A stretch of 64,000 nucleotides of DNA from positions 1 to 64,000 of the forward strand of contig JAFAKB010000081.1 of assembly GCA_019235885.1 (NCBI GenBank), in the 5' to 3' direction. This stretch comes from Candidatus Eremiobacterota bacterium. Its GTDB lineage: Bacteria > Vulcanimicrobiota > Vulcanimicrobiia > Vulcanimicrobiales > Vulcanimicrobiaceae. Under the pieces are notes generated by a model. That model made no database searches. It was given only the letters and a program-made list of their open reading frames with translations, and was not told the DNA's origin. The position numbers and the translations under genes were made by a program. Within the stretch, counting starts at the first letter, position 1; every line of letters starts with the position of its first letter. Positions 9,814 through 39,012 of this stretch are shown here, piece after piece.

Positions 9814-10725
9814 TTAGGCGTCGAACGACCCGCTTCTCGCGACCCGCAGCACAACTGGAGTGCTGACCTGGCTTTGGAATATCTTGTAGGCATCAAGATC
9901 TGTGAGAGCCGCTATAGTTGCGTGATGCACGGTCAAAACTCGGTCTTGCAGTTCGGGGTCTCCCTCGAGCATCTCAATTTTGAGGCCCCAAGCCGCGGCC
10001 TTGTTAGGGCCAACGTGGCGTCGGTGGGCTTTCGTGTGCTCGAGCTCGGTGAAGTGAGAAATCACCGCTTTGGCTGCGTTCATCGGATCCTGTTCACCGC
10101 GCAACATGTCGCTAGAGAGCCAGGTGGTTACGATGTCTTCCGACCACTCAATGGCCCGTTGCGCCTCAGAAACAGAAGGTGCATAGTTATGAATAAGAGT
10201 GCTCCAGGCAATTGCGTCGTCTTGGTCCTTCTTAACAGAGTTTACGGCCTTCCAGAAATCATCGACGATCATTCGCGCAGAAATGCTCCCAATGAGAGGG
10301 TCAAAAGCGCCAAGGCAGGAGTGTTTACCCATCATGATACGGCTGCCGATGCATGCGAGCATGGTACCGGCAGAGAGAGCAAGCTGCGGAACGATTACGC
10401 GAATATCGCTAAAAAGTGACCGAAAATAATCGCCGATCGCCTCAGCTGCGGCGATGTCTCCCCCGGGCGTGTGCAAGATTAGGTCCAGCCCTCTGTCCCG
10501 CGGGAGCCCAGAGACGACAGACATGAACGAGTTCATGTCGACGTCATCTACCTCAAAAAGTAGAAAAGGAAGACCCAGACTGCTTTTTTGCAGCCAGCCC
10601 GAGTAATAGATTATCGTGTTCCTATTTGTGTACGCGAAAAGCTCCTTAAGTGCTTTCGTTCGCACTAGGTCGTAACTATCGGGGGTTTCCCGAATGTCTT
10701 TACAGACTGTGGCCCAATCACCCAA
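9814..10725 (-). CDS. Clp-fold serine protease, SDH/SppA-like (SDH_sah family)
   Basis: 303 residues. The core reads DLILHTPGGDIAAAEAIGDY (about 81-100) and then VIVPQLALSAGTMLAC, the crotonase/Clp-fold arrangement of the serine dehydrogenase proteinase and SppA families; Ser118 in LSAG is the likely nucleophile. There is no signal peptide or membrane segment, so it is cytoplasmic. The start is a TTG at 10725 with GGGAG 9 bases upstream; no ATG or GTG fits better. It lies downstream of the ImmA/IrrE gene after a 369-base gap and 127 bases before phaC, which may now be read through from it. In the island it could act as the proteolytic output of the Ubl module, but that is inference. Confidence 0.82.
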   Translation of the reverse strand: MGDWATVCKDIRETPDSYDLVRTKALKELFAYTNRNTIIYYSGWLQKSSLGLPFLLFEVDDVDMNSFMSVVSGLPRDRGLDLILHTPGGDIAAAEAIGDYFRSLFSDIRVIVPQLALSAGTMLACIGSRIMMGKHSCLGAFDPLIGSISARMIVDDFWKAVNSVKKDQDDAIAWSTLIHNYAPSVSEAQRAIEWSEDIVTTWLSSDMLRGEQDPMNAAKAVISHFTELEHTKAHRRHVGPNKAAAWGLKIEMLEGDPELQDRVLTVHHATIAALTDLDAYKIFQSQVSTPVVLRVARSGSFDA

Positions 10726-11094
10726 GCGGTCGTTCTCCCTTAGTCCTTGCTTGTTCGGTCAGATATGCGCAGCCTGAGCCGTGCTAAGCCCTTTTGCGTT
10801 GGAGGCAACCAACCCATTCGTTGAGGCATATCCGTTTCGTGTTCCGAGGTCGATGCGGGCGGCTCAGTCGGCTGAACTCGGTCGCGAAGATGCGAGGCGT
10901 TCTTCTGCGAGTGTTTCCCTTTCATTTTGCACCAACTCTGCGGCTTCTGCAGGTAGTTTTGCACGGGCGTTCGCGTTTGGTGACGACGCAGGGCTTGATC
11001 CGCCGATCCGGGGGCCCCATTTCGCTCAATGTTGATGTCCCGCGCCGGTCGGAAAATTGAACTGTTTTCGCCTCGCGCCTACTTTCCTTGCTGC
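10726..11094. other. Intergenic region with no supported gene
   Basis: 369 bases between the protease and ImmA/IrrE genes. The short frames on both strands show no recognisable protein and no ribosome-binding site; base composition is mixed. It may hold a separate promoter for the protease, but no convincing -35/-10 pair was found. Confidence 0.5.
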
Positions 11095-11688
11095 CTAGGC
11101 CCCCTTAGCCCAGCGATGCTGTTTGCTGGCGCTCGCCACTGAGGCTGCGGCGCGCGGGCGGGCACCAGTAATGTTTAGCCTATAGGATGCAAGCTGCGGA
11201 CTGACGGCATAGCGCATGCTGATCTCATCGACCGTCAATAAAAGGCGCGCGCAATGCAAACACGCCGCATCAGGAAGCAGTAACACGCCGGCGAGGTAAT
11301 CGGCCTCGTCTTCAAGATCTCGATTGACTCTCCGGCAGCCATGTGTGCCAAGGGCAGGACCAGGCGAGTGCATCAAAAGGGCATGAGCGATCTCATGAGC
11401 GATCGTGTTATTGACGCGACCCGGCGAATGGTAGTCGTTATAGATTATCATCCGCCGCGAACCCTCGAAGATCGTCAATCCGGAAACCGCCCTACCAGCG
11501 TTCCGAAGAATGCCCAGCGCTTCGTCACAACCTTTGATCTGATCGAACGAGATGACCGGAATATCAAGATACTTCGCTGCAACACGAGGTTCAAAGGGCG
11601 CAAGGTGGTCAAGCGACAACTCTGCGCGGAGATCCGCTGCGACCTTGTTCGCTTCCGATTTGAATCCGTGCCTTAGCGCCATGGTCAT
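11095..11688 (-). CDS. ImmA/IrrE-family metallopeptidase
   Basis: 197 residues with the zinc motif HEIAH (98-102) and the downstream glutamate in EDEADYLAGVLLLP, the signature of ImmA/IrrE (COG2856) proteases. Members cleave a partner XRE repressor in mobile elements (ImmA/ImmR) or in the Deinococcus stress response (IrrE/DdrO). The ATG overlaps the stop of the XRE gene by 4 bases, so the pair is translationally coupled, as in those systems. The natural reading is that this protease removes the neighbouring repressor upon a signal and opens the divergent Ubl operon. Confidence 0.9.
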   Translation of the reverse strand: MTMALRHGFKSEANKVAADLRAELSLDHLAPFEPRVAAKYLDIPVISFDQIKGCDEALGILRNAGRAVSGLTIFEGSRRMIIYNDYHSPGRVNNTIAHEIAHALLMHSPGPALGTHGCRRVNRDLEDEADYLAGVLLLPDAACLHCARLLLTVDEISMRYAVSPQLASYRLNITGARPRAAASVASASKQHRWAKGA

Positions 11689-12050
11689 CCGGACTTTCGG
11701 CGTCTCGCCGGGTTCACCAACTCGTACGCGTTACGGATCACCGTCGTGAGGGCGGCCGCTTGTTCCTCTGATAGGCTTGGATCGCCCCGAAGTAAGACGG
11801 ATATTTCCGTCAGGGCATCCTTATGGGACGGAGACGCCCCGAGATAATCATTCGCGTCTAGGCCCGACCATCTGACGAGCGCGGCCAAACCGTTTACGTC
11901 GGGGCGCTTTCCTTGTGCCATGCGAGTTAATGTTGAGGCGCTTATCCCGGCCTCCTTAGCGACTTGGCGCCATTGAAGTCCTCTGGTTCGCCGCGTCGCG
12001 TCAAGGGCGGCATACAGGCGGTCGGCGTCTAGGCCTGATCGATCAGGCAT
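11685..12050 (-). CDS. XRE-family HTH repressor
   Basis: 121 residues. A helix-turn-helix lies near residues 20-50 (WRQVAKEAGISASTLTRMA), followed by a helical C-terminal half that could hold the dimer interface and the cleavage target of ImmA/IrrE. The ATG at 12050 has GGAGGAGGG 8 bases upstream, which decides the start; an in-frame extension to 12482 is a shadow of the divergent Ubl gene. It is probably autorepressing, because its own -10 lies within the second of two palindromes in the 141-base divergent gap. Confidence 0.9.
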   Translation of the reverse strand: MPDRSGLDADRLYAALDATRRTRGLQWRQVAKEAGISASTLTRMAQGKRPDVNGLAALVRWSGLDANDYLGASPSHKDALTEISVLLRGDPSLSEEQAAALTTVIRNAYELVNPARRRKSG

Positions 12051-12070
12051 ACATCGGTCCCTCCTCCAAA

Positions 12071-12106
12071 CGTTTGACATTTCGAACACCGTTTGATATA
12101 TAGAAC
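12071..12106. promoter_or_regulatory. Tandem 16-bp palindromic operators, likely XRE sites
   Basis: Two copies of a GTTTGA...GAAC element, 12072-12087 and 12091-12106, repeat at a 19-bp period. Each 16-mer matches its own reverse complement at 12 of 16 positions. The first covers the -35 and the second covers the -10 of the Ubl promoter, an arrangement for direct repression. Confidence 0.75.
12074..12102 (+). promoter_or_regulatory. Promoter of the ubiquitin-like operon
   Basis: TTGACA (12074-12079), exactly 17 bases, TATATA (12097-12102). Transcription would start near 12109, giving a leader of about 83 bases before the Ubl ATG. It is overlapped by both palindromes. Confidence 0.75.
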
Positions 12107-12125
12107 AAAATGACTGGCGTTGCAA
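12097..12125 (-). promoter_or_regulatory. Promoter of the XRE-ImmA/IrrE operon
   Basis: On the minus strand TTGCAA (12125-12120), 17 bases, TATATA (12102-12097). The self-complementary TATATA serves as the -10 of both divergent promoters, so only one polymerase could occupy the site at a time. Confidence 0.6.
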
Positions 12126-12191
12126 GACTCGAATCTCGTTCTGCTTTCGCAACACCACCGACTTCGCTCCTTTTAGATGGAGGGCATCAAA

Positions 12192-12566
12192 ATGAATGAA
12201 ACGGGTGACGCGGAAAACGCTAGGCTGGAGGGCGAACTGAGCGAGGTCGACCGCGAGATCGCTGAAGATTCGGAGCGGCTTGAACACGACAAAGCGCGCA
12301 GGTCGGAAATCGAAGACCGACTCGAACATCGCCCACTCGTTATCTTCGTAAACACTCGCGAACGTCACGTGAACGGGCAAACAATTTCGTACGACGGTCT
12401 CGTGCGGCTTGCGTTCGATCCCGTGCCGACCGGGCCGAACGTTGCATTCACGATCACTTATCGGCGTGGGCCGCACGAGCATCCTGAAGGTATCGTCGCG
12501 CCGGGGCAGACCGTGCCGATCAAGGATGGTGAGATCTTCAATGTTACCCGAACTGATCGATCGTAG
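12192..12566 (+). CDS. Ubiquitin-like protein, multiubiquitin-type beta-grasp domain
   Basis: 124 residues. Residues 7-46 are a charged helix with coiled-coil character; residues 48-124 form one beta-grasp unit (LVIFVNTRERHVNGQTISY ... TYRRGPHEHPEG ... VPIKDGEIFNVTRTDRS), the pattern of the bacterial multiubiquitin family, which can have one to several repeats. The C-terminus is TDRS, without the diglycine of eukaryotic ubiquitin. GGAGGG 7 bases before the ATG at 12192 decides the start over the ATG at 12177. The E1-like gene begins inside its last 26 bases, so the two are translationally coupled. Its role is presumed to be that of a modifier or filament-forming Ubl; targets unknown. Confidence 0.87.
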   Translation: MNETGDAENARLEGELSEVDREIAEDSERLEHDKARRSEIEDRLEHRPLVIFVNTRERHVNGQTISYDGLVRLAFDPVPTGPNVAFTITYRRGPHEHPEGIVAPGQTVPIKDGEIFNVTRTDRS

Positions 12567-13722
12567 TCCCGATTTGCGGCGACTCCACGAGGACGGTTAC
12601 GAACTTGAGGTCCGTGGCGGCCATCTGCTTCTCCACAATATTCCGTACGTCAAGGCCGACCGAACAGTCGGACGAGGTGTGCTGGCAACGACCTTGCGGC
12701 TCGCTGGAGATGTAACGACGAGGCCCGATACGCACGTCGCGACGTTCGCCGGTGGCCACCCATGCGACGCAAACGGCATACCCTTGAATCATATCATTAG
12801 TAGCGGTCGGCAGCAGGTTGCCCCTGATTTCTGGATCGATCACACATTCTCGTCGAAACCACCCAACGGCTACGATGATTACTACGACAAGATGACGCAC
12901 TACGCCGCGCTCATCGCGGGGCCGGCACAGGTCCTTGATCCTCAAGCTACGCCGCGTCACCATGCGGTGTTGCGACCTTACGAGGACAATTCGCCCTTCG
13001 TCTACCTTGATAATGCCTCCGCACGTGCGGGAATCGAAGCAATCAATGCCAAGCTGGCCGGAGCTAAGGTCGCTATCATCGGCCTCGGTGGTAGTGGCTC
13101 ATACGTCCTTGACTTCATTGCGAAGACGCCGGTGTCGGAAATCCACCTCTACGATTCCGACGACTTTGTGCAGCACAATGCCTTTCGTGCTCCCGGTGCG
13201 CCGAGCGTCGAGGAATTGCGCGAGAAGCCGAAGAAAGTCGCCTTCCTTGCCGAGCGTTATTCTCGGATGCATCGCGGCATCAAAATGCACGAAGAAATGA
13301 TCAGCGAATCGAACGCTGGGCAACTCGCCGGGGTTGATGTTGCTTTTATTTGTGTTGATGAAGGCTCTGCTAAAGGTGGCATAATTTCTGTCTTGGAGTC
13401 GCTCCAAATCACGTTTATCGATGTCGGAATGGGCATCCAAGCTGAGGGGGGGACGCTTCACGGCATTCTTCGCGTCACTACCAGTACGCCGGAGCACCGA
13501 AACCACGTCCACGACCGGCAGCGGATACCCCTAGGAGCTGTCGAGCCGAACGACTACGCGAGTAATGTGCAGATCGCGGAATTAAACGCGCTCAACGCGG
13601 CGCTGGCGGTAATCAAGTGGAAAAAACTCCGAGGACTCTACGCAGATCTCGAACGTGAGTTTCACTGTCTCTATACGCTCGACGGCAACCACCTGTTGAA
13701 CGATGACTTCGGCTCGGACTAG
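12541..13722 (+). CDS. E1-like ThiF-fold adenylyltransferase with N-terminal DUF6791-type domain
   Basis: 393 residues. Residues about 10-140 (DGYELEVRGGHLLLHNIPYV ... GDVTTRPDTHVATFAGGHPCD) match the DUF6791 region that precedes ThiF domains in Ubl operons. Residues 165-390 are the E1 fold: ATP loop GLGGSGSYVLDF (181-192), the LYDSDDF acidic turn, and the HNAFR motif with its arginine. By family analogy it adenylates the Ubl C-terminus. Cys75 in GGHPCD is the best candidate thioester cysteine; Cys271 lies on the core strand. No JAB peptidase or separate E2 is encoded nearby. The start is the ATG at 12541 inside the Ubl gene; an extension to 12409 is not credible. Confidence 0.9.
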   Translation: MLPELIDRSPDLRRLHEDGYELEVRGGHLLLHNIPYVKADRTVGRGVLATTLRLAGDVTTRPDTHVATFAGGHPCDANGIPLNHIISSGRQQVAPDFWIDHTFSSKPPNGYDDYYDKMTHYAALIAGPAQVLDPQATPRHHAVLRPYEDNSPFVYLDNASARAGIEAINAKLAGAKVAIIGLGGSGSYVLDFIAKTPVSEIHLYDSDDFVQHNAFRAPGAPSVEELREKPKKVAFLAERYSRMHRGIKMHEEMISESNAGQLAGVDVAFICVDEGSAKGGIISVLESLQITFIDVGMGIQAEGGTLHGILRVTTSTPEHRNHVHDRQRIPLGAVEPNDYASNVQIAELNALNAALAVIKWKKLRGLYADLEREFHCLYTLDGNHLLNDDFGSD

Positions 13723-30862: not shown

Positions 30863-30881
30863 GCTGTAACCGTGCTGTAAC
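30863..30881 (+). promoter_or_regulatory. Candidate SARP box upstream of the C39-like peptidase gene
   Basis: GCTGTAAC occurs twice, at 30863-30870 and 30874-30881, with an exact 11-bp period, the spacing bound by SARP regulators. A TATTAT at 30899 or TATCGT at 30893 could be the -10. The start codon is 55 bases downstream. Similar pairs stand before two other local transcripts. Confidence 0.6.
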
Positions 30882-30935
30882 GCACGTTCGTGTATCGTTA
30901 TTATTCGTTGTGGTTGCTTCCTGGAGGACGCGGAA

Positions 30936-32081
30936 ATGCCTTGGTCCACAAATCTCAGCGTTCGCTATCATCAGCAGAACACGGACAAGCTGTGCGGACC
31001 TGCTAGCGCGATGATGGTACTTCATTCGATCGATGGCCAGACCGTACAAGAAGATGAGCTTTGGGGCAAACTGAAGTCAAGCATCGGCGGTTGGAACACC
31101 AATCCGTGGAGTCTCGAGGCCGGGCTCAACCGCTATGCCCCTCAGCGGTTCGTGGGCCGCTTTCGCGCCGTACCGGGAAATAACCAGAATGATGCAAACT
31201 CGCGGGTCGTCGGAGCCTTGCTCGCGCAGGAGCCCGTACCACCCGTCGTTCTCGTTTTCGGAAAGGCGCACTGGGTGGTCGTTACCAATGTGAACCTAGC
31301 GGCGATGCCAAACGGTGACGCGCTGATGGTCCTCGGGTACTACATCCACTGCCCCACCGTGTCGCCGTTGAACCCGCCTAGGCTGCACGGCGATAACGAT
31401 CTGTGTGCCACGGGTTCCACCTTTGGTAGCACTGATGCCTATCAGTACGTCAGCTATCCGGCTTGGCAAGACGAATACTTCAACGGCTATTACGATGGTA
31501 GGGAATTTAAGTTCGTCACCGTTGCGATCGACGATAGTTCTGTGCTACCCGAAATCTCACGCCTCTCCGAACGCACTGAACGATTGCGTCTCTATGGCTA
31601 CGACGCTGCGTACCTTAGCGAATTCGTCAACCCCAAGGTCGCCGCGGACGACGCGCTAGCCGCGATCACTAGTCATGGTCTTGGCGACCATGGACCGTTG
31701 CAGAGCGCCCTTCATGACCTTACGGCAGCCGGCGAACCGGAACTCGTCACGCGTGTCGACGTGCTTAGGTGGACATACTATGTTGTCCCACTTCTTCGCG
31801 GCGACCGCGTCGTCGGAGTGGCGCGCATGAACGCGCTCACCAGTGCTTTCATGGGAGCGTCTGCGACCCCAGACGGAGTTTACCACATTCTTAGCTCTGC
31901 AACGCTCAAAAAGGAGTTGCCCGCCGGATACGTCGCAACCGGCCTTGTGTGGGCTCCGTGCCGCGAGTCAAGGTCGCAGTATCACCCGCTCCGCCGCATT
32001 CGCGGACCAGCCGGCTGCGGTTTTCTCGACCAGCGTGGCGTCTATCATGAGTCGCTCACGCCGCTGACGAGCGGCGGCTGA
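30936..32081 (+). CDS. C39-like papain-fold cysteine peptidase
   Basis: 381 residues. The N-terminal ~130 residues fit a C39-like papain fold: Gln in RYHQQNTDKLCGPASAMMVL with Cys20 as nucleophile, and His112 in GKAHWVVVTNV. The remaining ~250 residues are not recognised. There is no signal peptide and no ABC transporter fusion, so it is not a classical bacteriocin exporter. GGAGGA 7 bases upstream supports the ATG. Base composition is clearly lower in G+C than the flanks. It may process a secreted or modified peptide; this is inference. Confidence 0.7.
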   Translation: MPWSTNLSVRYHQQNTDKLCGPASAMMVLHSIDGQTVQEDELWGKLKSSIGGWNTNPWSLEAGLNRYAPQRFVGRFRAVPGNNQNDANSRVVGALLAQEPVPPVVLVFGKAHWVVVTNVNLAAMPNGDALMVLGYYIHCPTVSPLNPPRLHGDNDLCATGSTFGSTDAYQYVSYPAWQDEYFNGYYDGREFKFVTVAIDDSSVLPEISRLSERTERLRLYGYDAAYLSEFVNPKVAADDALAAITSHGLGDHGPLQSALHDLTAAGEPELVTRVDVLRWTYYVVPLLRGDRVVGVARMNALTSAFMGASATPDGVYHILSSATLKKELPAGYVATGLVWAPCRESRSQYHPLRRIRGPAGCGFLDQRGVYHESLTPLTSGG

Positions 32082-32692
32082 GTGATTGCGAAGCGCCGGT
32101 TCTCGGAGTCGTAGTCGCAGGCTCGAAGACGATTTCGCGCGTTGAACCGCATCTTAAGGGCAGTGTTTGGAATGTCGACCACGACGCTGCCGGCGACAAC
32201 GTGAGCTTCGACCCAGACGTAGGCGCAGTGCGCGGTTGCAAAGTTTGCCCTGCAATTGGGCGCCAGCGCGACGGCGTTAAGTGGCCGTCGAAAACTGGTT
32301 GCGTTGACGGTTGCAGATTGGAGCAGTCCGAATACAGCGATGCGTTCACATTCATTTCGAACGTCGTACTGACCTGGCGGTAGGCGGTCGTCGGTTTGCG
32401 GTGGACCGAAGCCGTAGTCCCCGTACGAGTAGAGATGCCGGTGTGCCGCCGGGTACACGGTGTGCCTCGGTTCGATAATCGCGTCAGCTCGAAGCGGCGT
32501 CTCCGATGCGAATAGGCCGTAGGTATCGGTCCATTTGATCCAAATGGCCGCCAGCGGCGGTAGCACGATCCAGGCCAGGTTGGGACGACGAGCCCCCACG
32601 GGCCTCGCTATGACGATCGAGGAGCCGGTCTCTGAAAGCTTTGCGCGGCCTTCGGGATCGGTCCTAATCGTAAGGCTGTACGTGCATGCCAT
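32045..32692 (-). CDS. Unrecognised protein, probably beta-rich
   Basis: 215 residues (MACTYSLTIRTDPEGRAKLS ...). Alternating short hydrophobic stretches, FGLLQSATVNATSF and CAYVWVEAHVVAGSVVVDIP suggest a beta sandwich of about 190 residues. No signal peptide. Its 3' end overlaps the convergent peptidase gene by 37 bases. The ATG at 32692 has no ribosome-binding site, and a putative -10 (CATTAT) lies only about 9 bases upstream, so the message could be leaderless. Function unknown. Confidence 0.6.
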   Translation of the reverse strand: MACTYSLTIRTDPEGRAKLSETGSSIVIARPVGARRPNLAWIVLPPLAAIWIKWTDTYGLFASETPLRADAIIEPRHTVYPAAHRHLYSYGDYGFGPPQTDDRLPPGQYDVRNECERIAVFGLLQSATVNATSFRRPLNAVALAPNCRANFATAHCAYVWVEAHVVAGSVVVDIPNTALKMRFNARNRLRACDYDSENRRFAITQPPLVSGVSDS

Positions 32693-32715
32693 GGCTAGGA
32701 TAATGCGTCAACCGC

Positions 32716-32733
32716 GTTACGGGCTGGTTAATC
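32716..32733 (-). promoter_or_regulatory. Candidate SARP box upstream of the beta-rich protein gene
   Basis: On the minus strand GATTAAC (32733-32727) and CCGTAAC (32722-32716) repeat at an 11-bp period, sharing TAAC with the pairs at 30863 and 37650. It is 23 bases before the start codon. Confidence 0.5.
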
Positions 32734-32816
32734 GGCCCGGAACGAGAACGGTTATCGGTAACCGTCCGTCGTACAGAGCAGAATGGTGCTTAGTCCGGAG
32801 CGGAGTGACTACAGCA

Positions 32817-34889
32817 ATGGTGCATTCGGGTGGTCCGAAACTGATGGAGACGATCGCCGAACGTTCTCCGCGTATTCTCGCGGTCTGGGGGCCGGCCGGG
32901 TACCGCAAAAACGCGCTGCTGCGCGGGCTTGCGGCTCGAATGGATCGCCTCGTAATATGTACGGTTCCGGCGCCCGCCGAGGGACAGGATCTAAGCCGCG
33001 CGGTACTGGAAGCGCTCGTATCCCGTAGTCGTACCCGCGCCGCGCGCTGGGCTGCGGGGCGACTGGCGCAGCCCAGAGAGTTCGCGTCGATGGCAGCCCG
33101 GGAAGCGTTGCGCCGAGAATGGCCGCTTGTCGACGGGTCTGAGCTCTTCGTGTTGCGCGACGTCGGGGGCTCCATCGCAACGCCGGCCGGGTTGGACCTT
33201 GTCGAAGAACTCGTCGCTTCGCTACCCGCGGGTCGCACGTTGGCCGTGACGACCCGAATTTCGCTGCCGCCGGCGCTCACCCAGATCGTCGACGCGCACC
33301 GTTCGCTAACGATTACGCCAGCCGAGTTGGCACTCTCGCGCAATGCGGTGGACGACCTAGCGCGTCAGGCGGGTCTCTCGCAACCGAGTGCGGAGCAGAT
33401 TTATGAAATTGCTCACGGCTGGCCACTCGTTTCCCGCCTCTTGATCCGTTTGGTGGCCGCCGAGCCGTCCTTAAAATTGGAGATGGCGCGTAGCCTTACG
33501 GCCGCCGCGCTCCTCGCATTCGCGGCGCACCGAACGGTGGCATCATTGGAGGACAGCGTTCGGGATGCGGTTGCCGTCTCGGCGGTGCTCCATGGCGCGA
33601 CACAATTGGAACTGATGCGAGTCTTGGGCGGAAACTGCGATGATGTTGTCTTTAGCCAGCTACTCGCTCTTCCGTTCGTCGAGCTAGAAGCGGAACGTGC
33701 GATCATACACCCTGAGATCGCTTGCTTGATGCTGCAGAGGTTCAGGTCCGTCGTCATACCGCTCTATGAACAGGTCCTTCACGCCCTGAGCGGTGACGGC
33801 GCGTATGCGGAGGCTGCTCGAATCGCGGTCGATGGCGGTGATATCATTCGCGCAGCTGCAATCCTGGACGCTGCGCCGCCTTACACTGCCGCTCGCGTTC
33901 CGCTCGAGGATTACGAACGAGTATTGGACCGCCTCGATCGTGATCTGGTCACCCGCTTTCCGAATGTTTGGCTCGCTACGATTCCGTATCGAGCGTTTTC
34001 CGTTGACCGTGCAACTTACATCCGCGAGGCGGAGACGGTGTACTATTGCTTGCCGCGAACGGCGACCGACGAGCAGCGCGCCGTGGTATTGATTCACCTC
34101 GCGTCCGCATATGCCAACGTCGGTCGGGCCTCGGAGAGTGACCAGCTTCTGGAAGAGGCATTGAACGGATTTGCCCACGAGCCGTCATCGGCCCGCGCGA
34201 CGCTGCTGACGTTCAGCGCAACGCTCCGCGGTATCGAGGGGCGTTTCGTCCTGGCTCGTGCTCAGGCAGCTGAAGCGGCATCCATTTCGGCTCCAGACTT
34301 CGTCTTCGGCGAGAACCAGACGCTGCATTATATCGAGGCCCATGAAGCAGCGTTTCGCGGGCGCTACGGGCGCTCACTCGTCATGTTTGATGAGCTGATG
34401 CGGAGAATGACACGCGAGGATCTGCCGCTTTATTTGGCATACGCGGCGACCAACGGTGCCTTCATCGCCTGGATAAGCGGCGACGACGAGCGGTTCGAGC
34501 GGTACGTCTCAATCCTCGAGGACCGCCTCACGCCAGGGATCGAACGCGGTTTTGCTCCGATGGTAGACGCGGCGCGCGGCCGTGTGCCGCAAATCGACGA
34601 GCGCTATCCTTGGCCGGTCTTGGCCGCCATAGCTCACCTCTATCGAGTCGGCGAGGCATCGGTCGAGTCCGACGCCCTTTCATCGGCATGGGCAGCGGTG
34701 CATGCCGCCGACGAACGACGCGATCCATACGCGCAGATCTTCGCGCATACGGCGGTGTTCGTACTCGACAGAGCTTCACGGGCTGAGCAGAGCGCGAAGC
34801 TTCTCACCATCGCTAACTCCGTAGAAAGCCCCGAGTTGCAATTCGCAATTCGCGAGTTAATTGCCGAGAAAGGCCAGCGGGGATTTTAG
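32817..34889 (+). CDS. STAND/MalT-like NTPase regulator, N-terminal part of a frame-split SARP activator
   Basis: 690 residues. It begins with a MalT-type NTPase (PRILAVWGPAGYRKNALLRG; LFVLRDVG; RTLAVTTRISLPPAL) and continues with helical TPR-like repeats (LLEEALNGFAHEPSSARATLL). The P-loop reads GPAGYRKN, with Asn replacing the usual Ser/Thr after Lys, so nucleotide binding may be weak. There is no DNA-binding domain before the stop at 34887. The winged-helix/BTAD part follows in another frame, 20 bases on. ATG at 32817 chosen; GTG at 32805 is possible. Likely controls the surrounding accessory genes. Confidence 0.75.
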   Translation: MVHSGGPKLMETIAERSPRILAVWGPAGYRKNALLRGLAARMDRLVICTVPAPAEGQDLSRAVLEALVSRSRTRAARWAAGRLAQPREFASMAAREALRREWPLVDGSELFVLRDVGGSIATPAGLDLVEELVASLPAGRTLAVTTRISLPPALTQIVDAHRSLTITPAELALSRNAVDDLARQAGLSQPSAEQIYEIAHGWPLVSRLLIRLVAAEPSLKLEMARSLTAAALLAFAAHRTVASLEDSVRDAVAVSAVLHGATQLELMRVLGGNCDDVVFSQLLALPFVELEAERAIIHPEIACLMLQRFRSVVIPLYEQVLHALSGDGAYAEAARIAVDGGDIIRAAAILDAAPPYTAARVPLEDYERVLDRLDRDLVTRFPNVWLATIPYRAFSVDRATYIREAETVYYCLPRTATDEQRAVVLIHLASAYANVGRASESDQLLEEALNGFAHEPSSARATLLTFSATLRGIEGRFVLARAQAAEAASISAPDFVFGENQTLHYIEAHEAAFRGRYGRSLVMFDELMRRMTREDLPLYLAYAATNGAFIAWISGDDERFERYVSILEDRLTPGIERGFAPMVDAARGRVPQIDERYPWPVLAAIAHLYRVGEASVESDALSSAWAAVHAADERRDPYAQIFAHTAVFVLDRASRAEQSAKLLTIANSVESPELQFAIRELIAEKGQRGF

Positions 34890-34909
34890 AACCCTTCATT
34901 CGGCTGCGA

Positions 34910-35731
34910 GTGCTGCGTGATCGTCAGTTGCGTGATCCGCGGCTAGTCGTCGAGCTGATTGGGGCCCGTGTCACGCGAGATCGCCAGCCGCTCAAGCTCA
35001 CCGACAAGGAACTCGAATTTCTGACGTTGCTTGGTTCAGCTCACGGATCGATATCGCGCGACCGCATCGGCGAGACTCTTTGGGGTCATCTTGACCCTGA
35101 GGAGTGGCCAAATAATATCAAGGTGACTCTTTCTCGGCTTCGCACAAAGCTGGGAGTACGTGACGCCGTCCTTTCTTCGAACGGAGGATATCGGCTCGGG
35201 CCGAAGATTGAAGTCGATCTTCGCCGAGCCGAAGCCCTCGTTAGAGATACTGCGAGCGCGCTTCTCGACGAGGCCGGTCGAGACGCGCTTAGACGCATTG
35301 TCATGGCGTATAGGAGTGGTTCCGCCGCGCGATACGAGCGCTTCCCGTGGGCACAGTCTTTTTTGGTTCGCATCCAGGATGTGGTCTGTACCGCCGGCCT
35401 GATGCTCGCGAAGGATGCTCTGCGCCGAAGCTCGATCCACGAGGCTCTCACGGAAGCAAGGGCGGTTACTGACGTGGACTCCTTAAATGAAAGCGCTTGT
35501 GAGCTCACGATTCGCGCTTACCTTACGCTCGATGATGTTGACGCCGCCCGCCGCGAGTTCAGGCGCTACGCTGCCGTCCTCGAGTCTGAGCTGGCAACCG
35601 CGCCCGCTCCACATTTGGCCGCGCTCGCGCAAGAGCCCCTGCGGAACCCGAAACTAGTCGGGTCTTACGGACCGCTCGGCGGAACGACACCGGAGCCGAT
35701 CGGTCCTGCGAGGCTTCCCCCATTGCCGTAG
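34910..35731 (+). CDS. SARP-type winged-helix/BTAD transcriptional regulator (C-terminal part)
   Basis: 273 residues from a GTG at 34910 without a ribosome-binding site. LTDKELEFLTLLGSAHGSISRDRI and NNIKVTLSRLRTKLGVRDAV are an OmpR-like winged helix, followed by YRLGP and the BTAD helical domain (about 95-240). The frame is open upstream through GILEPFIRLRVLRD, which looks like the usual linker joining the STAND part to this domain. So this is probably the C-terminus of one ~970-residue activator, interrupted by a -1 (or +2) frame change just before 34887. Confidence 0.8.
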   Translation: MLRDRQLRDPRLVVELIGARVTRDRQPLKLTDKELEFLTLLGSAHGSISRDRIGETLWGHLDPEEWPNNIKVTLSRLRTKLGVRDAVLSSNGGYRLGPKIEVDLRRAEALVRDTASALLDEAGRDALRRIVMAYRSGSAARYERFPWAQSFLVRIQDVVCTAGLMLAKDALRRSSIHEALTEARAVTDVDSLNESACELTIRAYLTLDDVDAARREFRRYAAVLESELATAPAPHLAALAQEPLRNPKLVGSYGPLGGTTPEPIGPARLPPLP

Positions 35732-36234
35732 TAGATTGTCATCGCATCGAAGTCGAGGTACTTCTTCCCAAGCGGAACGTCGACGAAGTAACCGCGTACC
35801 GATCCATCCGCAGTCACCTTCGAACCCAAGATAACGAGACCGAGCTGGCCATCGTTCGTATTTACGTACTTGTCCGCCGGCTGTTCCAGAACCAACGTCG
35901 CCGACGATAAATCGCTTGCCAGGGCTAACGAATATCCAATCCGCGCACCTTTGTACTGGGCTCCGATCGGAGTGAACGTCAATTTTTGCGTGCCATCTAA
36001 TGTCCCTAGGACGGTGATAGAACTGATCGTACCGGGGGTCTTAGTGTACGTGCTCGGCGCAAAGAAATCGAAGAGGACCTCGATCTTTCCGCTCCCTGGC
36101 GGATTTTCGTCAGCGTGGCAGAACAAAGGGTTCCCGTCGTAGGTCGTGATGTTCGAGGTTCCACCGAAGGAGTCGTTGGTGAACCCGTCGAGATGAATCT
36201 GATTCAGCTTGATTTGCAACGGCAACTGGGCCAT
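35665..36234 (-). CDS. Unrecognised beta-rich protein
   Basis: 189 residues (MAQLPLQIKLNQIHLDGF ...), rich in Gly, Thr and Ser with alternating strands, no signal peptide, one Cys, and a proline-rich end (GVVPPSGP). AAGGA lies about 10 bases before the ATG. Its 3' end overlaps the regulator gene by 67 bases, convergently. It is the last gene of the minus-strand radical SAM operon. No family recognised; it could be the secreted or structural product of the locus. Confidence 0.6.
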   Translation of the reverse strand: MAQLPLQIKLNQIHLDGFTNDSFGGTSNITTYDGNPLFCHADENPPGSGKIEVLFDFFAPSTYTKTPGTISSITVLGTLDGTQKLTFTPIGAQYKGARIGYSLALASDLSSATLVLEQPADKYVNTNDGQLGLVILGSKVTADGSVRGYFVDVPLGKKYLDFDAMTIYYGNGGSLAGPIGSGVVPPSGP

Positions 36235-36314
36235 GATAAAATATCCTTTTCGCGAACAGCGAGTGTGAATTGTACATCGATCGGGGAGGTGTTAGTGTCA
36301 GCCCGCGGAACTGA

Positions 36315-37310
36315 CTACCGGTGAAGTTGGAGAAATCTCGTTGCGATTGATGCCGCGACATCGTTTCCGTGGGTAGCGATTACGGCCATCGCGACCTTAT
36401 CGCGCTGCAGCGCTATGCAGGCCTGACAAATGGAGGCAGACGGCGGCAGGCGGTATCCGGGGAGATGCTTGGCGACGAACTCTGAGATGCCGGCAGGACC
36501 GGCGACGTGGAGCCAGGCGTGAAGAAGGTCCGTGGGCGCGGACGTCATGACTTCGTCCAGCGGACGGTTCGCCACCGAACCGATCTCCAGTAGCGGCAAC
36601 TCCTCCAACGGGAAGCCGCAACACGCCGTCAGTCGTTGGTCGGGTGTGACCGAGATAATCGTCAAGATTTGTGGACACCCGCCATGTTGATAGCCCGCGT
36701 CGTGCATTAGGATTCGATTATGGCTGAGCCGCGCATTTCCGCGGCCGCCGGCATCGGAGATCCATGGATCATGTGCGATGGCCACGACCCCTTCAGTGAT
36801 CTGTTGCGCGAGTTCTGTGCGGATGATCGAATCATCGAAGTCGGACTGGTCGCATCGTTCGACCGAAATACGGGTTGAAATCCCGGCGGCCGACGCTGCT
36901 CGGGCGGCGTGTATGACTCGCTCAACCGGAATGAACTGCTGATGAAACGTCCCGGTTGAGAGCATTAGCTCATCGAGCCCCGATGTGGCGAGGCGGGTGG
37001 CGCGCTTTGCGGCAGCGTACGCGTTGACCGCCCAATATCCGTTACTGATTGCACGCGTATCGAACTCGACTTGATGTGCATGTGCGATCAGGGCGTCAAG
37101 ATCGTTGCCGAGTAGAAAGCACTCGCCGCCGGTGAACACAACGCGCTCGATCGTTGGTAGTCGCTTCGCCTCTTCGATGAGAGCATGAATTCTCGGTACG
37201 GGAATGGATGTGGTCGCTTTGGGGCTTGCGCCAATGCAGCAGTGGTCGCACGCTGCAGTGCAGCGGCGCGTTGTCAAGATCGACAGGATGCGGGGAGACG
37301 CGATCATCAT
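36315..37310 (-). CDS. Radical SAM protein
   Basis: 331 residues from the ATG at 37310. The SAM cluster is C17, C21, C24 (RRCTAACDHCC), followed by VVFTGGECFLLG and AISNGYW. C-terminal cysteines (GGCPQIL, TACCGFP, CQACIAL) suggest an auxiliary cluster of SPASM or twitch type. It begins 1 base after the stop of the 98-residue gene, so the two are coupled; this is how many peptide-modifying radical SAM enzymes are arranged with their substrate or binding partner. An extension upstream to 37394 shadows that gene. Confidence 0.85.
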   Translation of the reverse strand: MMIASPRILSILTTRRCTAACDHCCIGASPKATTSIPVPRIHALIEEAKRLPTIERVVFTGGECFLLGNDLDALIAHAHQVEFDTRAISNGYWAVNAYAAAKRATRLATSGLDELMLSTGTFHQQFIPVERVIHAARAASAAGISTRISVERCDQSDFDDSIIRTELAQQITEGVVAIAHDPWISDAGGRGNARLSHNRILMHDAGYQHGGCPQILTIISVTPDQRLTACCGFPLEELPLLEIGSVANRPLDEVMTSAPTDLLHAWLHVAGPAGISEFVAKHLPGYRLPPSASICQACIALQRDKVAMAVIATHGNDVAASIATRFLQLHR

Positions 37311-37311
37311 G

Positions 37312-37608
37312 CTATTGGGCTGCTTCGATGTCCGCGCCGAGCGCCTCTTCATCTGTGATGAGTATGTCCAGCGGACCCGCGATCGATCGGTCACCGTCCG
37401 AGTGCTCCGGCAGGAAGTAAAGCACGATCGGCTTGTCCTTAGTGTAAGGCGTCGACAAAGCGATGGTTCCGTAGTGGACGCCCCCGAAAACGAACGTCAT
37501 TGACCTCAGGACGTTGTCATAACGCCGTCGACTTTCAAGATGTGTGACGGTTGCTGAAGTGCGCGAGCATTCCGATGCGGTGCGATTGAGGTTCGCGTTG
37601 TCGGTCAT
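37312..37608 (-). CDS. 98-residue protein coupled to radical SAM enzyme; possible precursor or partner
   Basis: MTDNANLNRTASECSRTSAT at the N-terminus, a central stretch RSMTFVFGGVHYGTIALSTPY, and an acidic tail (LDILITDEEALGADIEAAQ). AGGGGG lies about 10 bases upstream of the ATG at 37608. The size, position and coupling to the enzyme allow a RiPP precursor or a recognition protein, but no leader motif (such as GG or GA cleavage site) or core repeat is clear. Not a known family to me. Confidence 0.6.
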   Translation of the reverse strand: MTDNANLNRTASECSRTSATVTHLESRRRYDNVLRSMTFVFGGVHYGTIALSTPYTKDKPIVLYFLPEHSDGDRSIAGPLDILITDEEALGADIEAAQ

Positions 37609-37649
37609 CGTGTGTACCCCCTGATCCACGATGAGCTTCGGCCATGGCG

Positions 37650-37667
37650 GTTACAAGCAGGTTACTG
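37650..37667 (-). promoter_or_regulatory. Candidate SARP box upstream of the radical SAM operon
   Basis: On the minus strand CAGTAAC (37667-37661) and TTGTAAC (37656-37650) repeat at an 11-bp period. It lies at the very end of the MATE gene and 41 bases before the 98-residue gene. Confidence 0.55.
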
Positions 37668-39012
37668 TATGCGACAGCCTGCGGCGCTCCCAGTCGCCGT
37701 TGTTGAGCCGCAGGGTCGTGATCGCCGCGCGCACCAACCAGCCTGCGGTCCAGCCGAGCGGCACGGCCCAGAGTCCCAGGTGCAGCAGGCGGATGCCAGA
37801 CGCGGTTCCGCCGACGGCGACGAGCGTCGTCACGATCCCCATCGCCATGACGAACCTCGTGTCGCCGGCGCCGCGGATCGGCGCGAGAGCCGTCATCGCA
37901 TAGCCTTTCAGCGGCAGCGTTATCCCGACGTGCGCGGCGAGCGGCGCCGCGGCGATTGAGGCCAGCTTGGGGCTCAGCGTGCAGATCGCCGCTAACGGCC
38001 AAGCGAGCGCCGCGACCAGCGCGCCGACGGCTAGGCATACCAGCACCGCGATCCGCGTCGCGGCGCGCTGGAATGCCTTCCCACCCGCGTAGTCGCGCGC
38101 GCCGATCCGCTGGCCCAGCACCACCTCGGAGGCGTCCCCGAGGGCGCCCGGCAGCGCCCACGTGATGTCGCTGACGAGGCTCAGCGCGCGGAACGCCGCG
38201 ACCGTCTCCGTCCCGGCCGGCGCCAGCAGCGCGATCGTCGCCGGCTCCGGCGCGATCTGCAGCACCAGGAAGACGAACTCCGGCCAACTCAGCGCCGCGG
38301 TCAGCGCGACCAGCCCGCGGTCGATCGACCACGACGCGAAGATCCCCAGCTCCGGGTGCTTGCGCGCTTGGCCGATCATGTACGCCAGCCCGACGATTTC
38401 CGCGATCAGCGACGAGACGCCCGCGCCAGTCAGCCCGAACGGCCGGTGGGTCCCGAAGCCGAGCGCCAGCACGAACACCAACGGCACGTGCACCGCGTTG
38501 ATTGCCAACAGCAGCCGCAGCGTCGGCTTCGAGTCGCCGGCCGTCGCGAACGCCACCGCGATCATCCCGCTGCACACCATCGGGATCAGGCACGCGCACC
38601 GCAGCATCAGGTAGTGCGCCGACGCCGCCAGCGGCGCCCCGCCGGGAAGCAGCGCGTGCAGCAGCGGCTTCGCGGCGACCAAGGAAGCCAGCGCCGCGGC
38701 CGCCGCGATCGCCAGCGGGACGACGGTCGCCGCGCGGACGATCGCGCCGTAGCGCTCGCTCTCCCCCGCGCCGATCGCCTGCGCGCCGACCACGCGCACC
38801 CCGGTGCTGAACGCGAAGAGCCCGATCCCGAGCACCATGAACACTGCCGTCGCGCCGGTGATCCCGGCCAGCGCCGCCGTCCCCAGCGAGCCGATCGCGA
38901 TCGTGTCCACGATCCCCAGCAGCTGGTCGCTGACGAGCGCCAGGGCGTTCGGCGTCGCGAGGCGCCGCAGCGCCGCGCCGGCGTCGCGGTGCTCGATCGC
39001 GGCGATCGCCAT
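37651..39012 (-). CDS. MATE-family efflux transporter
   Basis: 453 residues, about 12 membrane segments in two halves. GSLGTAALAGITGATAVF, TGVRVVGAQAIGAGE, FGTHRPFGLTGAGVSSLIAE and PIRGAGDTRFVMA are MATE blocks. It would export drugs or metabolites with Na+ or H+. It lies upstream of the radical SAM operon on the same strand with normal G+C, so it is more likely core genome than part of that locus, although it could export a product. Confidence 0.92.
   Translation of the reverse strand: MAIAAIEHRDAGAALRRLATPNALALVSDQLLGIVDTIAIGSLGTAALAGITGATAVFMVLGIGLFAFSTGVRVVGAQAIGAGESERYGAIVRAATVVPLAIAAAAALASLVAAKPLLHALLPGGAPLAASAHYLMLRCACLIPMVCSGMIAVAFATAGDSKPTLRLLLAINAVHVPLVFVLALGFGTHRPFGLTGAGVSSLIAEIVGLAYMIGQARKHPELGIFASWSIDRGLVALTAALSWPEFVFLVLQIAPEPATIALLAPAGTETVAAFRALSLVSDITWALPGALGDASEVVLGQRIGARDYAGGKAFQRAATRIAVLVCLAVGALVAALAWPLAAICTLSPKLASIAAAPLAAHVGITLPLKGYAMTALAPIRGAGDTRFVMAMGIVTTLVAVGGTASGIRLLHLGLWAVPLGWTAGWLVRAAITTLRLNNGDWERRRLSHTVTCL

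Follow-up and report, generated by a model that had tools for sequence, protein, structure and literature searches.

A conserved GTAACC-N5-GTAAC operator and a predicted SARP-like regulon in Candidatus Eremiobacterota

Genes and paired repeats at the locus

The window, i.e. the whole stretch of 64,000 nucleotides (64 kb) of a Candidatus Eremiobacterota bacterium that was analysed here, holds a gene cluster with three operators, P1 to P3, each located 5' of a different transcript, and with a regulator gene between the predicted targets (Table 1). An earlier note on this DNA had described paired TAAC heptamers at 30863/30874, 32733/32722 and 37667/37656, and all three pairs were found at these positions. 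TAAC was indeed part of the half-site; however, the conserved unit was longer than TAAC alone, namely GTAACC-N5-GTAAC, with GTAAC(C) as the half-site. The P3 operator shares bases with the stop codon of a MATE transporter gene that lies upstream of it (37651-39012, minus strand). Conservation of coding sequence was rejected as the cause of the P3 repeats, because this stop codon sits in the repeats in different frames in the window and in the relative G096. None of the sites faces the regulator gene.

Table 1. Positions of the operators, the -10-like hexamers and the genes of the cluster in the window
Feature	Position	Strand	Remarks
P1 operator	30863..30881	+	GCTGTAACcgtGCTGTAAC; GTAACC-N5-GTAAC direct repeat, 11-bp period; 5' of the C39-like gene
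P1 -10-like hexamer	30893-30898	+	TATCGT; one base further out than at the other sites
Peptidase_C39-like protein, 381 aa	30936..32081	+	P1 transcript; weak, sub-threshold Pfam match (E 1.1e-3)
215-aa protein	32045..32692	-	P2 transcript; no family; conserved in G096 and G092
P2 -10-like hexamer	32705-32700	-	CATTAT; ATG 7 nt downstream of the hexamer
P2 operator	32716..32733	-	GATTAACcagCCCGTAAC; TTAACC-N5-GTAAC; 5' of the 215-aa gene
Regulator, N-terminal part	32817..34889	+	MalT-like STAND NTPase and TPR, 690 aa
Regulator, C-terminal part	34910..35731	+	OmpR-type wHTH and BTAD (SARP module); frame open upstream to ~34874
189-aa protein	35665..36234	-	Last gene of the P3 transcript; no family
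Radical SAM protein	36315..37310	-	Nearest named model is the YydG-type peptide epimerase
98-aa protein	37312..37608	-	First gene of the P3 transcript; no family; conserved in G096 and G092
P3 -10-like hexamer	37639-37634	-	GAAGCT
P3 operator	37650..37667	-	CAGTAACctgcTTGTAAC; GTAACC-N5-GTAAC; 5' of the 98-aa/radical SAM/189-aa transcript

The YydG-type radical SAM peptide epimerase systems are the nearest named ones, but the radical SAM protein stayed far below the cut-off of the YydG model TIGR04078 (82.7 vs 300 bits) and no YydF-like precursor was identified here. The closest named records were Candidatus Eremiobacterota MAGs, and the window's own genome (G000) also holds a radical SAM paralogue. 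Beyond Eremiobacterota, tblastn searches detected no BTAD neighbour at the radical SAM homologues of Thermogemmatispora, Saccharopolyspora and others. The 98-aa protein may be the substrate of the radical SAM enzyme or its partner, and the cluster genes together suggest a RiPP-like peptide-modification island. Elsewhere in the window (9814-13722), a low-GC islet (0.56) carries a ClpP-like SDH protease, an IrrE-type peptidase, an HTH gene and a DUF6791-ThiF (E1-like) protein; it looks like an acquired module and is possibly defence-related.

In relatives with complete sequence, the regulator is a single ORF of ~930 aa with a STAND-type NTPase, TPR, an OmpR-type wHTH and BTAD. Only in the window is it split, between the TPR and wHTH-BTAD halves, by a frame change near 34,880 (34870-34910), which may be either an assembly error or a real split. 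The earlier note had listed a BTAD gene at 34910-35731; the BTAD assignment held but its status as a separate gene did not, for it forms the C-terminal third of the larger regulator. The domains that mark the SARP family were both above cut-off in the window protein (Trans_reg_C 28.3 bits, BTAD 44.1 bits). A search of the PDB with the wHTH-BTAD sequence gave a response regulator as the sole match, and it took fold comparison to see the likeness to AfsR: the best matches of the wHTH-BTAD model (pLDDT 82) were AfsR (8k60, Z 18.1, 235 residues) and EmbR (Z 16.9). In a full-length model of lower confidence (pTM 0.46), the N-terminal half resembled a STAND-TPR protein and MalT (8bob, among the best matches). 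In effect, the regulator is a MalT-like sensor that carries a SARP module where MalT has its LuxR HTH. The recognition helix is identical over NNIKVTLSRLR between the window and G096 proteins. Walker A is degenerate in both of them (GPAGYRKNA in the window, 32817-32960; GYRKNA in G096, L017) and intact in G088 (GYGKSS, L024), and nucleotide control may thus be altered in the window and G096 proteins. The SARP module is N-terminal in the SARP family, whereas it lies C-terminal to the STAND-TPR half in the relatives, so the regulator is classed as SARP-like, working like a SARP, and not as a SARP proper. SARPs are found in Actinobacteria and known chiefly from Streptomyces, while the closest named relatives here are Candidatus Eremiobacterota MAGs; being found in Actinobacteria is, in our view, more a matter of where SARPs turn up than of what defines them.

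Conservation of the operators and promoter geometry

TAAC-N7-TAAC occurred three times in the 64 kb window, each time at one of P1-P3 (shuffle mean 0.11; three reached by 0 of 100 shuffles). In the 6.9 kb region, no other gap length between TAAC pairs recurred, and 0 of 2000 dinucleotide shuffles gave three pairs. Scanning the whole 4.5 Mb genome, a check proposed in the earlier note, favoured its claim: 3 of the 10 sites (15 when the pattern was read backwards) fall into the 6.8 kb of this cluster, or 0.15% of the genome, although these figures taken alone are generous since the pattern was picked after inspecting the window. The other seven genomic sites were scattered, without common gene context, and were rejected as regulon members and taken as background; those of them that were inspected by eye lacked the A/T pair described below.

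Close homologues of the cluster's radical SAM gene were found in five further genomes of the genus and in one of the family. In G096 (locus L017) all cluster genes are present and fully syntenic with 38-63% protein identity, and the MATE gene flanking the cluster reaches 80%. GTAACC-N5-GTAAC was found 5' of the same three transcripts (L017 8634 +, 13538 +, 15396 -), with the DNA flanking the operators just 21-44% identical to that of the window. The arrangement pointed out before, pairs 11 bp apart in front of three different cluster transcripts, is therefore repeated at the orthologous promoters of G096. G092 has the operator at two of its three orthologous promoters, the C39 promoter being without a clear one, as is the radical SAM promoter of G090. 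In G093 the operator stands 5' of the radical SAM gene, and a phage-tail-collar-domain gene (L019 11866-12487), 3' of the C39-like gene, is preceded by a separate operator (one change) and a -10-like hexamer. G088 showed an operator with one change 5' of a neighbouring gene and with two changes 5' of the radical SAM gene. Over all promoter comparisons among relatives, 9-11 of the 11 core bases were kept while the flanks were 19-47% identical. A motif-free scan of 13 upstream regions, which assumed merely some identical 5-mer pair at some spacing, returned such a pair at 11 bp in 9 of them (1000 shuffles: mean of maxima 4.5, largest 8). No operator of the GTAAC-repeat sequence was found in the paralogous cluster C68 of the window's own genome or in G029, and by eye no alternative repeat was identified in them. 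The C68 locus (L022, G000:C68, 6032-10536) represents a second, diverged regulator and radical SAM cluster.

When the cluster sites were aligned on their repeats, positions +12 and +16, with the final base of the 3' GTAAC as reference, were A and T in 11 of 12 sites, a match obtained by 0 of 20,000 shuffles (shuffle maximum 6/12). A -10 hexamer, NANNNT, has this pair as its key bases; here it lies 8 bp past the 7-bp half-site GTAACNN and is predicted to serve as the -10. The exception is P1 of the window, with TATCGT 9 bp away. In SARP-dependent promoters, direct repeats lie at 11 or 22 bp and the 3' repeat is 8 bp from the -10 element (PMC10936776). The match to SARP sites claimed in the earlier note thus agrees with the published rule in two respects, the 11-bp period and the 8-bp distance to a -10-like hexamer, the latter at all cluster sites other than P1. 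With the hexamer set at -12 to -7, the GTAAC cores fall at -38 to -34 and -27 to -23, coinciding within about one base with T-38 and T-27, which are read by AfsR. At three promoters, those of the 215-aa gene in the window (32690-32705) and in G096 (L017 13565-13578) and of the radical SAM gene in G093 (L019 9003-9015), the start codon lies 6-7 nt past the hexamer, so their messages are predicted to be leaderless or nearly so; the N-termini align at these starts.

The operators are far beyond chance, and a chance reading is ruled out by the relatives. The shortness of TAAC, the post hoc choice of the pattern and the lack of genome-wide enrichment of its loose form over the reversed control would speak for chance matches selected by eye, but the probability of this is negligible given the conservation at orthologous promoters in diverged genomes and a fixed hexamer that played no part in choosing the pattern.

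The regulator and other candidate binders

We take the paired repeats to be the operators at which a SARP-type activator acts, most probably the regulator whose gene lies between the targets, with a probability of roughly 0.82; both binding by this regulator and activation, rather than repression, are what we infer. The cluster's own regulator is favoured as the binder because of its location, the 8-bp SARP geometry and the co-occurrence of operator and regulator. Among 11 genomes scanned, perfect 13-position operators (the repeats plus A/T) numbered 13 in the six genomes with a regulator orthologue (about 50% identity or more) and 1 in the five genomes without, the count of 13 including four G096 sites taken from separate scans. 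Furthermore, operators surround the regulator gene in several genomes. Speaking against the cluster regulator is the one perfect operator in G094 (C382), a genome without the regulator. It is the counterpart of a G096 operator outside the cluster (L120 1501-2214; G096:C6:906620), located 5' of a papain-like Peptidase_C70/C39 gene, which, like the C39-like gene at P1, could plausibly belong to the regulon. The P1 hexamer out of register by one base, the two promoters in G092 and G090 that lack a clear operator, and the split of the regulator gene in the window also weigh against the proposed reading. Since the window genome has eight BTAD matches, a different BTAD protein could also bind. Further perfect operators in G093, G092 and G090 stand 5' of membrane, secreted or unassigned genes, which are candidates only.

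An OmpR-family response regulator (MtrA/GlnR/PhoB-like), rather than a BTAD protein, is the main rival as the binder of the GTAAC repeats. The MtrA consensus in Streptomyces is GTAACCNNNNNGTAACC (PMC12323332), i.e. GTAACCN5GTAACC, and the operator equals it, so that the sequence of the site alone does not name its binder. The operator is also close to the GlnR box, GTnAC-n6-GTnAC (PMC10704036), and several OmpR-type response regulators are encoded in each genome of the genus. However, such regulators are present in 11 of 11 genomes, whereas nearly all perfect operators belong to the six genomes that also have the cluster regulator, with a concentration in the regulator's own cluster. The response regulators all stay below the cut-off of the MtrA family model (NF040689, 300 bits), the best in the genus reaching 234 bits. 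Moreover, a global regulator would have many sites, while G000 has one perfect site and a few near ones. Taken together, we regard binding by a response regulator as unlikely. MtrA, unlike the regulator here, is a two-component response regulator without BTAD, and the BTAD protein in turn scored 20.5 bits against NF040689, below the 300-bit cut-off. Even less probable, by a wide measure, is that the repeats serve an alternative (ECF-type) sigma factor as promoter elements, a reading rejected for misfit of spacing: GTAAC resembles the ECF -35 core GGAAC, but its distance to the hexamer is 10 or about 21 bp vs an ECF spacer of 16-17 bp, an exact direct repeat would be unexpected, and the downstream NANNNT is the -10 type for the housekeeping sigma.

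If the operators are bound by the cluster's SARP-like regulator, a pair of wHTH-BTAD modules would occupy GTAACC-N5-GTAAC next to each other, offset by one helical turn and at the usual position of the -35 box, and would hold sigma region 4 over a promoter having just a -10 element, 8 bp downstream. The activator, a MalT-like STAND-TPR protein with a C-terminal SARP output in place of the LuxR HTH, would switch on the C39-like gene, the 215-aa gene and the 98-aa/radical SAM/189-aa operon together. One neighbouring regulator thus probably turns on the whole cluster, and the proposal that these genes form one regulon gains support, as a prediction, from the shared operators kept at orthologous promoters, the fixed hexamer and the co-occurrence with an AfsR-like regulator. 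The isolated SARP domain of AfsR is constitutively active in vitro. It is conceivable, though rather doubtful, that the frame change in the window is real and that the freed SARP module acts constitutively, signal control being lost and the operators kept.

Comparison with known systems and significance

A close known counterpart is AfsR, the large SARP of Streptomyces coelicolor, with its afs box. Both regulators combine a wHTH and BTAD module with a STAND-type NTPase and TPR, and in the afs box, too, two direct repeats with an 11-bp period cover the -35 region, the 3' one standing 8 bp from the -10. However, the SARP module is N-terminal in AfsR and C-terminal here, the afs repeat is CGTT(T/C)ATCG instead of GTAACC, and the host here belongs to Candidatus Eremiobacterota instead of Actinobacteria. 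SARP-LAL regulators such as PimR are also cluster-situated, join a SARP module to a LuxR-family ATP-binding half and use heptamer repeats with 4-bp spacers, but their domain order is the reverse of that seen here, their repeat is CGGCAAG, often in three copies, and the main operator of PimR does not overlap the -35 box. MalT shares the N-terminal STAND and TPR and a C-terminal DNA-binding domain, which is a LuxR HTH in MalT and wHTH-BTAD here.

Most of what is known about SARP activators and their operators comes from antibiotic clusters of actinomycetes, and our literature search returned only two passing mentions of BTAD regulation in Eremiobacterota. Our comparison of sequences points to an operator that is real and conserved, and to a SARP-like regulon beyond the Actinobacteria. 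The coincidence of its consensus with that of MtrA is a warning when reading such sites. The same promoter geometry is legible, with phylogenetic footprints, in an uncultured soil phylum, and it is tied here to a regulator of reversed domain order, with a MalT-like sensor and a SARP output. The operator consensus GTAACC-N5-GTAAC-N11-ANNNT predicts further members of the regulon, and the operator offers a handle for switching on the peptide-modification cluster.
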